20,169 bases of DNA, taken from positions 1 through 20,169 of the IMG/VR virus record IMGVR_UViG_3300024359_000050; one strand, given 5' to 3'. The notes beneath the pieces were generated by a model. That model was not told where the DNA came from. It made no database searches and saw only the letters and a program-made list of their open reading frames with translations. The position numbers were made by a program, and so were the translations under genes. Shown here piece after piece: positions 10,868 to 18,225 of this stretch. This DNA is from a virus. How positions within the stretch are numbered: position 1 is the stretch's first letter; each line of letters starts with the position of its first letter.

Positions 10868-11332
10868 ATGAAGTTTAAGGGAGTCTATCCAAGAAAAAAT
10901 ACTACACGAACATTACCTGACCATGACTTTCTAAAATACTGGAGAGTTATAAGGTACTGGGTAAAAGCTAAATACGGACTTGGTACTCCAGACTTAGAGA
11001 TGCTTTTGTTTTTATATAGCGAACAAATATTTAATAAAAGCCAATTCAAAGAGTACGAAGAAATAATGTCCTGGGACGTAAATCGTTTTGGTAAATTATT
11101 AAAAGAAGAGTGGATTCACGTATGGAGAAAACGTAATGGAAAAGAAGCCACACTGTATGAGCTTACATACAAGTCTAAAAGAATAATAAATACTATTTAT
11201 AAAAAAATTAATGGAGAAGAGATTGCTGAAAGTGCTGCTGTAAATCCATTGTTTAGAAACGATGCATCATACATGGATAAAGTTTATCGAAATATGATTA
11301 AAGAAATGAATAAAGAAATTAGAGAACAATAA
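10868..11332 (+). CDS. possible winged-helix DNA-binding protein of unknown function
   Basis: A 154-residue basic protein. The segment FLKYWRVIRYWVKAKYGLGT, then PDLEMLLFLYSEQIFNKSQF (about residues 41-60), looks like helices of a MarR-like winged helix. The stretch SWDVNRFGKLLKEEWIHVWR (about 68-87) fits a recognition helix, and GKEATLYELTYKSKRIINTI (about 91-110) the wing and last helix. From memory, similar proteins occur in marine and flavobacterial phages. It is the only rightward gene between two leftward blocks, with its promoter overlapping that of the late operon, so a regulator of the late switch is plausible but unproven. Its end overlaps the end of groES by 14 bases, tail to tail. 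Confidence 0.65.
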   Translation: MKFKGVYPRKNTTRTLPDHDFLKYWRVIRYWVKAKYGLGTPDLEMLLFLYSEQIFNKSQFKEYEEIMSWDVNRFGKLLKEEWIHVWRKRNGKEATLYELTYKSKRIINTIYKKINGEEIAESAAVNPLFRNDASYMDKVYRNMIKEMNKEIREQ

Positions 11333-11576
11333 CTACATCTCGCTCCTGGATAATAGTGTAAGGCTCTTCATCTATCAACATAGTAAATCCAGAATTCTTA
11401 TCGTAATAAATAATATCTTCTGGTTTAACAACAGAAACATCTGTCCCTGGCTTGATTACAGATCCTTTTCTATACCTAAATTCATCAACGTCTGTTGCAG
11501 ACAACAATAAACCTGAAGAGGTTTTAATCTCTTCCTCTATGGTTTTTATTACAATGTACTTTCCAACTGGTTTCAT
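11319..11576 (-). CDS. groES: GroES-like co-chaperonin
   Basis: An 85-residue Cpn10 protein, about ten residues shorter than bacterial GroES. It caps the GroEL ring during folding in the cytoplasm. The start MKPVGKYIVIKTIEEE matches the first beta strand. The mobile loop is residues about 17-30 with a hydrophobic triplet LLL (23-25) where bacterial GroES has IVL. RYRKGSVIKPG and DIIYYDKNSG follow the usual strand order, and RDVVIVL closes the barrel. The segment corresponding to the roof loop appears short. It lies 3 bases after groEL, the reverse of the usual bacterial groES-groEL order. It presumably assists folding of a phage protein together with the adjacent GroEL. Confidence 0.9.
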   Translation of the reverse strand: MKPVGKYIVIKTIEEEIKTSSGLLLSATDVDEFRYRKGSVIKPGTDVSVVKPEDIIYYDKNSGFTMLIDEEPYTIIQERDVVIVL

Positions 11577-11579
11577 AAT

Positions 11580-13178
11580 TTATTCTTTAGCTCGCGCGTG
11601 TGTTATTATTGCATTAGTTGTTAAAATAGTAGTAGCTACACTTACTGCATTTTCAAAAGCAGTCTTAGTTACTTTCAATGGATCTATAACACCCATCTTA
11701 AAAAAGTCTCCATACTTTTCAGTCTTTACATTGTAGTCCTCATTTTTTTGTATATCTTCATGAGGATAAATGTCTCCATATTTTTTTCCAGCATTCTCTA
11801 AAATTTGCACAGCTGGAGCTTCAATAGCATCTGACAAAATTAGAAACGCTGTTTTCTCATCATCGTTTACTTTAGTCATAAATACTTCTTCTATTTTTCT
11901 TTGACAATTTAATAGTGCCATTCCTCCACCTTTTACAATACCTTCTTCTAAAGCACTACGGACAGCACACACGGCATCTTCAACCCTGTCATACTTTTCT
12001 TTTTGCTCTACATCAGAATTACCTCCAACATAAATAGCTCCAATAGATCCAGACAAACTTGCAATACGCTCGTTTATAAATTCTTTGTCTGCAACTAACT
12101 CTGTATTCTCCTGCTGTTCTTTAAGATCAGAAATTCTTTTTTCTATCTCTTCAGTTATTTGATTATTTTTAATAATAACCGTTTGACTTTTTCCTGAAAT
12201 AATTTTATCTGCATGACCAAGATCTTTCATGCTTAACAGACTTAAATCATCTCCAGTCTTTTCTGAAAAGTATTTCGCCCCTACCGACAACGCAATGTCT
12301 TGCATAAGCTCGTGTTGTTTATATCCAAATTGTGGAGGTATAATATTACATAACTTAAGTCCGTTACGCACCACGTTTGCCGCCAGGGTGTTCACAACAT
12401 TGACTGAGCATGGACCAATGATGAGAAGCTTTTTGTTTTGCTGAATGATTGGCTTTAATATACTTTCTATTTGTAGAATGTTACTTATCTCCTGGTCACA
12501 AACTAAAACCAACACGTCTTCTAAAACTGACTCGTCATTTTTTTGGTTTGTGATAAATAAGTTTGAAGTATAGCCTCTATCAACTTTTATTCCGTTTGTA
12601 ACAGTTGCATACGTCTCATGGTTTTGAGAACGCTCTACAGTAACTATTCCATTTTTGCCAACCTTGCTATATGCGTCAGCAATTATTTTTCCTAAAACTT
12701 TATCGTTGTTTGCTGAAATTGTTGCAACATCCAGTAGTCTTGCTTTAGTAATTTTTCGTGAGTTCTTTTTTAATTCTTTAAGAATAATTTTACTGAATTG
12801 GTTTATTGATTTCACAACCTCAGTTATATTATTCTCTTTTGATAAATTTCTTTCTCCAGCTTTTATAATAGCCTCGGTTAATACAATTGCTGTAGTAGTT
12901 CCATCCCCAGCTGAGTTAGCAGTCCTACGTGCTGCATCTTTTAGCATTTGAACCGCAAGGTTTTCTACAGGATCATCTAAAAAAATAGAGTTAGCAACAG
13001 TTACACCATCTTTTGTAATTGTCATACCTCCGATATGTTCAGGTGATTCTATTAGAACCGTTTTTCCGCGTGGGCCTAACGTACTCTTAACTGCTTTAGA
13101 AATTTTTGTAATCCCTTTGATTAATTTATTTCGACCAGGTTGATCGAACTCAAGGTTCTTTGGAATGTAATTGCTCAT
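11580..13178 (-). CDS. groEL: phage-encoded GroEL chaperonin
   Basis: A 532-residue Cpn60 with all three domains. ATP-site elements are seen: STLGPRGK (32-39), DGVTVA (57-62), GDGTT (91-95, with the equivalent of E. coli Asp87), the hydrolysis Asp in RVEDAV (Asp401) and GGG at 417-419. GVIDPLKVTKTAFENAVSVA (496-515) is the conserved closing helix. The apical domain (about 195-375) is the most divergent part: LLIIGPCS and IIPPQFGYKQHELM differ from the bacterial forms, so substrate or GroES binding may be tuned. The protein stops at ITHARAKE and lacks the Gly-Gly-Met tail. It is transcribed with groES from a unit that begins with a TATATTTG box. Expected role: folding capsid or other virion proteins. 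Confidence 0.95.
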   Translation of the reverse strand: MSNYIPKNLEFDQPGRNKLIKGITKISKAVKSTLGPRGKTVLIESPEHIGGMTITKDGVTVANSIFLDDPVENLAVQMLKDAARRTANSAGDGTTTAIVLTEAIIKAGERNLSKENNITEVVKSINQFSKIILKELKKNSRKITKARLLDVATISANNDKVLGKIIADAYSKVGKNGIVTVERSQNHETYATVTNGIKVDRGYTSNLFITNQKNDESVLEDVLVLVCDQEISNILQIESILKPIIQQNKKLLIIGPCSVNVVNTLAANVVRNGLKLCNIIPPQFGYKQHELMQDIALSVGAKYFSEKTGDDLSLLSMKDLGHADKIISGKSQTVIIKNNQITEEIEKRISDLKEQQENTELVADKEFINERIASLSGSIGAIYVGGNSDVEQKEKYDRVEDAVCAVRSALEEGIVKGGGMALLNCQRKIEEVFMTKVNDDEKTAFLILSDAIEAPAVQILENAGKKYGDIYPHEDIQKNEDYNVKTEKYGDFFKMGVIDPLKVTKTAFENAVSVATTILTTNAIITHARAKE

Positions 13179-13198
13179 TATATTAGATTTAATTTAAG

Positions 13199-13206
13199 CA
13201 AATATA
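13199..13206 (-). promoter_or_regulatory. candidate -7 promoter box (TATATTTG) for groEL-groES
   Basis: Minus-strand TATATTTG, identical to the boxes before 10812 and 10124, ends 20 bases before ATG 13178. No -33 TTG is seen at 17-23 bases; the nearest lies about 31 bases upstream. Confidence 0.5.
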
Positions 13207-13238
13207 GTAAAAATATATTTATACTAAAATAAAAATGC

Positions 13239-13420
13239 AATGTCGAATGTCGACAAAAGTTCCCCACTTACTCTTTATATATATTTCTATTCTTCTTCTT
13301 TTTTTATATATTATTATTCTATTTATTATTGACATTATCGACATTAAAAGAATAAAGAACTAAGAACTAATAAGTTAGCAAAAAAAAGTCGACACAATAA
13401 CTGTCATAAGAATGTCGATA
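13239..13420. repeat. AATGTCGA-type short repeats around an AT-rich tract
   Basis: AATGTCG occurs as a tandem pair at 13239-13252, running into the palindrome TGTCGACA (13248-13255). TATCGACATT at 13336-13345 and AATGTCGATA at 13411-13420 are perfect inverted copies of each other. GACATT occurs again at 13331, and GTCGAC at 13388. Between the first and second groups lies an AT- and pyrimidine-rich tract (about 13270-13330). The arrangement is like repressor operators or replication iterons beside an unwinding element; the sequence alone does not tell which. Confidence 0.6.
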
Positions 13421-13448
13421 ACAAACACGCTTTAAAATACAAAAATTA

Positions 13449-13497
13449 GTTACTGACATTTTACTGACACAAATAAGTTATTTACATTTTACTGACA
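13449..13497 (+). repeat. direct repeat ACATTTTACTGACA, two copies
   Basis: The 14-mer ACATTTTACTGACA occurs at 13456-13469 and 13484-13497, exactly 28 bases apart. A further TTACTGACA lies at 13450-13458. The same TGACA core returns at 13970-13991. The regular spacing suggests protein binding on one or similar faces of the helix. Confidence 0.65.
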
Positions 13498-13589
13498 TAA
13501 ATTAAGGGATCAAAATAAAAAATATTATTAAATTTTTTTTTGGGTTCAGACACTTATAAGTTTAGGGCTATAGTAGCTTATACAGTTGT

Positions 13590-13850
13590 GGTTGGCCTGA
13601 GGAAAGTCGTTTTTTTCTCAGCTTGTCAGAACTTTTCAAACTTTTTTGTTGGATTGTTTCAGGATTCCTTATGACCAGCTCCAGCTCCAGTGCTGCAGCT
13701 CCAGTAATAGCTGCAGTATCTGTGCTGTACTGCTGTTGATTACAGCTTTGATTAGCTGCTCTGCTCCAGTGCTGCCTACCATCCCCCCACAGGGGGAAAG
13801 AAAAGAAGAAGGAGAGACCCTTCTCTTAACCCCAGTACGGATGTCACACA
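13590..13850. other. GC-richer non-coding patch with hairpins and repeats
   Basis: This stretch is clearly richer in G+C than its surroundings. CTGCAGCT (13693-13700) and AGCTGCAG (13709-13716) form an 8-bp stem. CCCCC (13784-13788) and GGGGG (13792-13796) pair around ACA. AGAAGG (13807-13812) pairs with CCTTCT (13819-13824). GCTCCAGTGCTGC is a 13-base direct repeat at 13684-13696 and 13763-13775. The short frames through it have no protein-like composition or family signature and read across the hairpins on both strands. It may be a structured RNA, part of an origin, or a packaging site. Confidence 0.55.
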
Positions 13851-13969
13851 CCCCAAACAAAACATAGTTAAAGCTTTCCAGTTAACATGTTAGTAATACG
13901 CAAGTAAAAGTATTAGAGAGTTTGTATAAAGTATATAAAGAGAGTTGAGTGCTGGACAACAGGAGTTAC

Positions 13970-13991
13970 TGACAAGTTATTGACAAGTTAT
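13970..13991 (+). repeat. perfect tandem repeat TGACAAGTTAT x2
   Basis: The 11-mer TGACAAGTTAT is repeated head to tail at 13970-13980 and 13981-13991, one helical turn apart. The second copy contains the TTGACA of a possible promoter, so it may be an operator for the early transcript. Confidence 0.7.
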
Positions 13992-14022
13992 AGTAATATT
14001 AAAGTATAATTCCTTATATTTA
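13980..14022 (+). promoter_or_regulatory. candidate early promoter(s) for the rightward operon
   Basis: TTGACA (13980-13985) and TATAAT (14005-14010) are 19 bases apart, a slightly long but recognisable sigma70-type pair. TATATTTAC (14015-14023) resembles the Bacteroidota -7 box with A for the last G. The second would start RNA near 14028-14030 and give a leader of about 85 bases before ATG 14114. The tandem TGACAAGTTAT overlaps the upstream element. Confidence 0.45.
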
Positions 14023-14113
14023 CAGCATGGGAGAGCTAAATATCATAGAGAAATCACTTAACACGCTGAGAGTCAGCACGTTATCTCCTACAAATCATTT
14101 AAATTCAACTACA

Positions 14114-14257
14114 ATGAAAGAATCAAAAACAGTAATTAAGTATGTACGTATCGACTGTGCATTAATCAAGACAGCACAAAAGCTGTATGAGTTAGACCAA
14201 GTAAAAAAGAATGTAATAGCACTAAGCTATTTTGTAACATCTAATCCATTTCAATAA
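14114..14257 (+). CDS. 47-residue protein, first gene of the early operon
   Basis: The frame is open from ATG 14027, but that start lies within or next to the putative promoter. I prefer ATG 14114, preceded by CAACTACA, close to the ACTACAATT leader of later genes. The 47 residues (MKESKTVIKYVRIDCALIKT...) look like a short beta strand followed by an amphipathic helix (TAQKLYELDQVKKNVIALSY). No family recognised. Its stop overlaps the next start by 1 base (TAATG). If the longer start were used the protein would have 76 residues. Confidence 0.55.
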   Translation: MKESKTVIKYVRIDCALIKTAQKLYELDQVKKNVIALSYFVTSNPFQ

Positions 14258-14496
14258 TGAGTAATATGATAGCATTAAACAAGAAGCACCAAGCAATAGT
14301 AAACAAAGCAGTGTACTGGTTAATCCAGCATAACGAGGCAGATAGACAGCGTAACATTGCTGACAGTGCTGGTAACGAAAAGAACTACAAGTACTGGGAC
14401 AAAAGATGTCAGAAGACATTTGACAAGTACGAAGAATATACCAGTGAACTACCAGCAAGAGAGGTAAAACAAATCGAGAAATCAGAATTATATTAA
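14257..14496 (+). CDS. 79-residue early phage protein of unknown function
   Basis: A small hydrophilic helical protein: ALNKKHQAIVNKAVYWLIQH then NEADRQRNIADSAGNEKNYK, ending LPAREVKQIEKSELY. The closing LPxREVKxIEKxxxY pattern resembles small proteins of marine myo- and podophages known to me only as hypothetical. Coupled to the preceding gene by a TAATG overlap and followed after 19 bases by the next gene. Likely an early host-interaction or regulatory protein, judged by position only. Confidence 0.62.
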   Translation: MSNMIALNKKHQAIVNKAVYWLIQHNEADRQRNIADSAGNEKNYKYWDKRCQKTFDKYEEYTSELPAREVKQIEKSELY

Positions 14497-17931: not shown

Positions 17932-18225
17932 ATGAAGAGAGACATATTTGATGTTTATGCTACAGCAATAGCTAAAAAATTTCATATCACATTAGATGAT
18001 ATGTTTACAAAAAACAGAAGACGAGACATTGTAGATGCAAGGCAGCTGCTTTATTATTTATGTATGGAGAGACCTATTAGAGTTTCCTACATAAAAAGAT
18101 TTATGGAAGAGAACGGACATGCCGTGACGCACTCCAATATTCTTTACAGCTACAAGAAAGCTAAAGAGTTGATTGATGGGGATGCTGACTTTCAAAACTT
18201 TATAACAGAAATATTAAAAAAGTAA
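17932..18225 (+). CDS. stand-alone DnaA domain IV-like DNA-binding protein
   Basis: A 97-residue basic protein resembling only the C-terminal DNA-binding domain of DnaA. FDVYATAIAKKFHITLDDMF (6-25) matches the first helices; RRRDIVDARQLLYYLCME (29-46) matches the 'R-x-x-x-I-x-x-A-R-Q-x-x-M-Y-L' segment; GHAVTHSNILYSYKKAKELI (62-81) matches the 'RDHSTVLHAxxKI' recognition helix, with divergent basic residues. There is no AAA+ domain. Such proteins may direct replication initiation at phage sequences, or counter host DnaA; both are inference. It follows the DUF3310-like gene without a gap and precedes the next gene by one base. Confidence 0.72.
   Translation: MKRDIFDVYATAIAKKFHITLDDMFTKNRRRDIVDARQLLYYLCMERPIRVSYIKRFMEENGHAVTHSNILYSYKKAKELIDGDADFQNFITEILKK

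Follow-up and report, generated by a model that had tools for sequence, protein, structure and literature searches.

A candidate two-copy, oriC-like replication origin in groEL-carrying phages that encode stand-alone DnaA domain IV proteins

The non-coding DNA upstream of groEL in an uncultured phage carries an ordered set of elements resembling those of a bacterial chromosome origin, and it is probably (at roughly 55%) one copy of a two-copy, oriC-like phage origin that would be read by stand-alone DnaA domain IV proteins. The window, i.e. the whole stretch of DNA that was analysed, is an entire virus-fragment record of 20,169 bases. A gap separates leftward groES and groEL (11319-13178; groEL itself at 11580-13178 on the minus strand) from a rightward operon starting at 14027. 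Also encoded are an exonuclease, an annealing protein of the Sak type and a protein that matches the DnaA domain IV profile.

The gap had been described by a sequence-only reading as a candidate origin or control region built from two repeat families, and the repeats themselves were confirmed. The inverted pair at 13336-13345 and 13411-13420 matches perfectly and can be lengthened to 11 bp (13335-13345 and 13411-13421), the repeated 14-mer is ACATTTTACTGACA (13456-13469 and 13484-13497, 28 bp apart), the 11-mer tandem consists of two copies of TGACAAGTTAT (13970-13991), and the AT-rich tract said to lie among the repeats is 82% A+T over 13260-13335. The sequence AATGTCGA occurs on the plus strand at 13239-13246, 13246-13253 and 13411-13418, and on the minus strand at 13338-13345. 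Counting either strand, all six TGTCGA sites of the window lie in the gap. In 300 first-order Markov copies of the whole window the gap contained 0.12 such sites on average and at most 2, and Markov copies of the gap alone gave a mean of 0.075, with six reached in 0 of 2000. The gap repeats are therefore genuine and beyond chance. The exact DnaA box TTATNCACA is absent from the window, and one-mismatch DnaA boxes are present in it at chance level (35, with 35.6 expected).

The whole oriC-like element (element 1) spans 13239-13421, and its order, i.e. outer boxes, AT-rich tract, tandem boxes, IHF-like site and right boxes, is kept upstream of groEL in relatives. The outer boxes are two minus-strand copies of TCGACATT overlapping by one base (13239-13253). 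They are followed by a candidate duplex unwinding element, an AT-rich segment of low duplex stability at 13271-13325; only 0.009% of the 60-bp windows of a longer record (G001), in which 13271-13330 is identical in sequence, are softer. Box 1 (TTATTGACA, 13326-13334, plus strand) differs from the DnaA box TTATNCACA by one change and abuts box 2 (TTATCGACA, 13335-13343, plus strand), so that the tandem consists of adjacent 9-mers. The left TGACA site (13330-13334) belongs to a box. As in oriC-type origins, an AT-rich tract, recognized here by its low stability, lies beside a box; the boxes carry one change in place of the exact TTATNCACA. The place of the IHF-type site is occupied at 13365-13377 (plus strand) by AACTAATAAGTTA, which by eye has 2 mismatches to WATCARNNNNTTR, the E. 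coli IHF consensus; the site is exact in many relatives. The right boxes comprise TCGACA (13389-13394, plus strand), the variant ATGACA (13402-13407, minus strand), which lies 11 bp from the next box, and a minus-strand TTATCGACA (13413-13421) that is the inverted partner of box 2. Three extra plus-strand ACTGACA sites, 11 and 28 bp apart, occupy 13452-13497. Similar sites occur in one relative (L003) and are lacking in three others (L004, L006 and L007), and the three sites are possibly an extension of the box array.

Relatives were collected by searching viral contigs with groEL (362 stretches confirmed, of which the best 80 were kept), by a first search with the DnaA-like protein (158 confirmed, best 80 kept) and by further DnaA-like protein searches yielding 292 (best 80 kept, two of them new), 137 (best 80 kept) and 13. 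Including stretches of other contigs, the pooled set held 276 partly overlapping sequences, among which the DnaA-like protein was present in 224 (108 distinct), the groEL upstream region in 141, the primase-helicase upstream region in 161 and both regions in 61; the relatives share ancestry, and counts across them are not independent. Record G001 equals the window over the gap and over 17 compared proteins (L002) and was taken as a fuller version of the same phage. Upstream of groEL, relatives show outer boxes followed by an AT-rich tract, a tandem of TNNNCA(T/C) boxes at a spacing of 8 or 9, an AT stretch, more boxes and often, by eye, a terminator-like hairpin. Under a fixed definition, 64 of 103 distinct segments upstream of groEL carry such a tandem, compared with a mean of 1.7 in shuffled segments and 1.4% of random segments. 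The counts rest on the tandem form only, by design missing clades with other boxes, and the 39 segments without a tandem include such clades (e.g. TTGGAATA) as well as two loci (L030 and L033) in which the DNA upstream of groEL is coding. An automated 7-mer search of each locus was dropped, as many loci yielded low-complexity or terminator words.

Scans with each phage's own box revealed a second cluster in the early arm, with the same order of parts and directly before the primase-helicase gene. This copy 2 was seen first in five genomes and then in many loci, about 7-12 kb from copy 1; for the phage of the window it falls past the window end, and its sequence was taken from G001. Copy 2 adjoins the start codon of the primase-helicase gene and is preceded by a terminator-like hairpin, identified by eye. 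Tandem boxes were present in 48 of 92 distinct copy 2 segments and missing in 44 (shuffled mean 1.4; 1.0% of random segments). Both tandems could be scored in 20 distinct phages, some of them near-duplicates, from the 61 partly redundant loci with both regions. The smallest box distance between the copies averaged 0.35 within a phage versus 1.00 when permuted (0 of 10,000 permutations), and box spacing was equal in both copies in all 20 phages (fourteen at 9, six at 8), a likeness within phages that shared ancestry inflates. The agreement of boxes and spacing within a phage suggests a trans-acting reader common to both copies. In G001, boxes differ within the phage (TTGACA/TCGACA in copy 1, TTAACA/TCAACA in copy 2). 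One record, G006, has no such element at its primase-helicase gene. Six exact TACGACAA sites are present in this phage (L281-L284), three clustered upstream of groEL and three isolated.

The same arrangement was observed in a metagenomic, circular record, MW202828.1 (Podoviridae sp. ctfjg026), which has the same gene order, including groEL, and box clusters at both places. Its annotations include 'dnaA' and 'chromosomal replication initiation protein', with no origin among the annotated features shown, and its DnaA-like protein is only 34% identical to that of the window.

Duplex stability in 60-bp windows was compared across eight genomes. The two copies are the two softest loci in four of the eight (G005, G023, G025 and G007) and rank first and fourth in G009. 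The groEL upstream region of G001 is second softest, its softest window lying in the groEL leader beside element 1, and copy 2 is fourth. Copy 2 is the softest locus of MW202828, with copy 1 outside the six softest, and copy 1 of G006 is fifth. Furthermore, the interval from the tandem to the right boxes contains an exact plus-strand WATCARNNNNTTR in 30 of 48 first copies and 18 of 49 second copies, compared with 0.25 and 0.15 in shuffles; on the reverse strand there were nine in copy 1 and one in copy 2. IHF-type sites with at most one mismatch fall at offsets 9-11 and 20-22 in 33/37 (copy 1) and 25/26 (copy 2) cases. These two offsets are ~11 bp, about one helical turn, apart, and they may simply mark clades. 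Right boxes are spaced by 11 bp in 33 of 34 copy 2 intervals and by 11 or 20-22 bp in 50 of 59 copy 1 intervals; the repeats are thus in helical phase, as in iteron arrays. No right-hand direct box was detected under the phasing criterion in 9/58 (copy 1) and 6/48 (copy 2) elements.

A DnaA domain IV-like protein had been noticed near the gap, and its identity was upheld by profile, predicted fold and synteny. This protein, DnaA1 (17932-18225, plus strand, 97 aa), is the candidate box reader. It matches Pfam Bac_DnaA_C (PF08299) at E 2.7e-9 with 37.4 bits (curated cut-off 31.5), and its AlphaFold model (pLDDT 89.9) superimposes on the E. coli DnaA-DNA complex 1j1v_A with Z 14.0 and rmsd 1.6 over 90 aligned residues and on the M. 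tuberculosis DnaA-DNA complex with Z 13.5, non-DnaA rows scoring Z 4.6 or less. The top Foldseek folds were DnaA-DNA complexes of M. tuberculosis (E 1.1e-3) and E. coli (E 1.7e-3). DnaA1 is accordingly predicted to be a DnaA domain IV with its helix-turn-helix; all 97 aa belong to domain IV, with no AAA+ ATPase domain. It was found in 25/25 records searched, which had been picked for length and were mostly known beforehand to carry DnaA1 (18 came via groEL, 7 via DnaA1). Two contigs (L286 and L287) assigned to Pseudomonadales and Aliivibrio MAGs also carry DnaA1 relatives; these may be phage contigs that were placed in the bin of the wrong host.

Downstream of the primase-helicase gene lies the gene for a further domain IV protein, DnaA2 (174 aa in G001; PF08299, E 3.5e-11), which is predicted to have a long helix after domain IV (pTM 0.55). 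DnaA2 is present in 21 of the 25 records; 22 had a match, but the sole match in G006 was DnaA1. It is absent from G004, G006, G007 and G015, and in G007 its neighbours keep their synteny but the gene between them is missing. One clade (L274, L265, L275 and G007) has TTGGAATA-type boxes in both copies and the DnaA1 helix QHNTIM; DnaA2 was not found in this clade, the whole-record search being that of G007. The idea that loss of DnaA2 tracks the most deviant boxes failed, as G007 is the deviant one among the four records without DnaA2. The box form of G004, TAAGCAT, is shared with L227-L229, which have DnaA2, the box of G006 (ACGACAA) is close to TCGACA, and G015 has TTAACAT/CTGACAT. With no like change in these other three records, any link between DnaA2 loss and boxes is limited to one clade. 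The 803-aa protein encoded at copy 2 is of primase-helicase type (BT4734-like_N, E 8.6e-18; DUF5906 at 26.0 bits, just below the cut-off of 27.6). No match to the lambda O or Rep_3 initiator families was obtained among 16 Pfam queries (15 different proteins, the protein encoded from 10868 being queried twice). G001 encodes a SNF2/ResIII-type helicase, and no DNA polymerase was recognized by eye among the ORFs listed for its early region (reverse complement, 15073-21255).

In the mechanism that we propose, element 13239-13421 would be one of two copies of a phage replication-origin module. DnaA1, in most relatives alongside its longer paralogue DnaA2 with the long helical tail, would bind the 9-mer boxes, and host IHF or an IHF-like protein would introduce a bend between the tandem boxes and the right boxes, which are in helical phase. 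The resulting strain would open the AT-rich tract next to the tandem, and the phage primase-helicase, encoded immediately downstream of copy 2, would be loaded. Through the two copies, groEL and primase-helicase expression may also be coupled to replication. Binding, opening, helicase loading and which copy fires are all steps that we infer. A more far-reaching form of the proposal, which we regard as tentative and would not yet favour, is that each genome carries two miniature oriCs (DUE, boxes, IHF and boxes, in the sequence known from E. coli) whose opening needs no phage-encoded AAA+ DnaA, that the domain IV proteins read private, fast-changing boxes, and that box form and spacing of the two copies co-evolve, so that related phages keep separate initiation codes.

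The right-hand part of the gap stands apart from this element. The sequence-only reading had taken the two repeat families together, as iterons plus an unwinding element or as operators of an early repressor, but they do not form one system. The iteron view was supported for 13239-13421, a conserved and in relatives usually duplicated element, and had to be given up for the far-right TGACA tandem (13967-13991, plus strand). The far-right pair is still TGACA in L005 and L129, whose tandem boxes are TTAACA, and this constancy when the boxes change places it outside the box system. Given its place before the rightward operon, it is likely an early promoter region. More broadly, 13520-14021 forms a second conserved non-coding block in nearer relatives, separate from element 1 in some. 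The core of the block, TTTAGGGCTATAGTAGC (13561-13577), is present in 22 of the collected sequences, which include overlapping loci from a single contig, and CAAATATA, a possible leftward promoter core, lies at the left edge of the block in relatives and is degraded in the window. An RNA element in the right half was considered and rejected: there was no Rfam match at gathering scores, and a nine-sequence alignment gave -1.33 kcal/mol with both-side changes in 2/15 pairs. A sigma-70 scan of 13000-14300 gave 7 matches, with 5.6 expected.

GC skew, proposed earlier as a means of locating the origin, was undecisive, since skew follows gene direction (the plus-strand gene 10868-11332, within the leftward arm, has positive skew) and the early arm is short, at about 14-17 kb. 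In G005, G023, G025 and MW202828 the extremes of cumulative skew fall 0.5-1.6 kb from the groEL start. Those of G001 and G009 are at contig ends or elsewhere, and skew was rejected as origin evidence.

The leading competitor to an origin, which we consider unlikely yet worth serious attention, is that the boxes are shared operators, i.e. control sites of DnaA1, DnaA2 or the 10868 protein that time groEL and primase-helicase expression and start no replication. Copy 1 lies upstream of the groEL promoter core, TATATTTG at 13199-13206 (minus strand, -7 element), which is of the Bacteroidota type TANNTTTG; TANNTTTG occurs in the first 75 nt of 106/106 distinct groEL upstream regions, with 8 expected, pointing to hosts among the Bacteroidota. 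Copy 2 similarly reaches the start of the primase-helicase gene, after the hairpin seen by eye, and the 10868 protein, which adjoins groES in most loci shown, has a weak match to a PHROG 'transcriptional regulator' (E 2.9e-4). However, operators need neither an AT-rich tract among the softest of the genome nor an IHF-type site at fixed offsets, and the Bacteroidota promoter core is found on the plus strand of copy 2 in only 5/108 cases, a count that would miss other promoter types.

Still less likely, in our judgement, is an origin with a different phage protein as box reader, for instance the primase-helicase through its C-terminal part, in the manner of the alpha protein of phage P4 at ori and crr; the DnaA-like proteins would then be helpers or have no role in it. 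The primase-helicase gene begins at copy 2. Covariation with box sequence was examined for seven proteins by partial-distance correlations. Best-column values over all sequences were 0.70 for VirE, 0.59 for the 18227 protein and 0.57 for DnaA1; the primase-helicase covaries above DnaA1 (0.70 vs 0.57 and 0.37 vs 0.21), with 791 vs 97 columns available. The DnaA1 signal stems from the TTGGAAT clade, 7 of 84 sequences, and falls to 0.21 without it, below all six of the other proteins (0.26-0.42). Phage pairs with similar DnaA1 yet different boxes exist: L152 and L251 share the recognition helix SVAHSTIIHG, and their boxes are TTGTCAT vs TCGACAT/TTAACAT. Covariation thus did not identify the box reader and gave DnaA1 no advantage, and because protein lengths and sample sizes differ, it points clearly to no other protein. 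Neither the 17932 protein (DnaA1) nor the 10868 protein, both named earlier as possible binders, was singled out by the tests run. A DnaA-type reader is nevertheless favoured by the domain IV proteins (two in most records), the DnaA-box-like boxes and the IHF-type site in oriC order; the changed DnaA1 helix (QHNTIM) and missing DnaA2 of the TTGGAATA clade also speak against another reader, in one clade only.

Another IHF-using nucleoprotein site, for recombination, packaging or partition, is very improbable: IHF-bent sites are established in recombination and packaging, but neither copy in MW202828 has an annotated integrase, partition or terminase gene next to it, none was seen among the searched neighbours in the window, and two copies with phased boxes fit such a site poorly.

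If the reading as a two-copy origin is true, these phages carry working miniature chromosome origins in which the box-binding domain of DnaA has been freed from its motor. It would then be testable which oriC parts (tandem box, IHF bend, phased boxes) suffice without the DnaA ATPase. The phages would also offer a view of how origin codes diverge between closely related replicons, and a sequence rule for locating origins in a large uncultured phage group.

Each of the parts is of a familiar kind; in searches of the open-licence literature no earlier description of their combination was found, nor any account that pairs a phage origin with a stand-alone DnaA domain IV protein. A review describes E. 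coli oriC as a DUE, box R1 (consensus TTATnCACA) and an IHF site, with strict spacing (PMC5742627). The phage element shares the order of parts (DUE, DnaA box, IHF, boxes), an AT-rich tract that is T-rich on the upper strand, 9-mers in the window one base from TTATNCACA and, in relatives, the IHF consensus at fixed places. It differs in that its boxes vary between phages (TTAACA, TCAACA, TGAACA, TTGTCA, TTGGAATA), its reader candidates have no AAA+ domain, there are two copies per genome, and the boxes are fewer; the orientation of R1 relative to the DUE is also opposite to that of the phage tandem. Iteron origins (lambda ori with O, iteron plasmids) similarly have replicon-specific repeats in helical phase beside an AT-rich tract, and a second review states that plasmid iterons are generally in helical phase and that IHF or a similar protein acts in plasmid origins (PMC5043065). 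In contrast, the phage reader candidates have the DnaA domain IV fold, and the two 9-mers that adjoin each other at the tract do not resemble lambda's inverted repeats. Lambda O is likewise an initiator without an ATPase domain. Lastly, the ori and crr of P4, both required in cis for its replication, are two separated sites with the same repeats, used with a primase-helicase, as in the phages described here; a DnaA-like protein and the oriC order of parts, both of which P4 to our knowledge lacks, set these phages apart.
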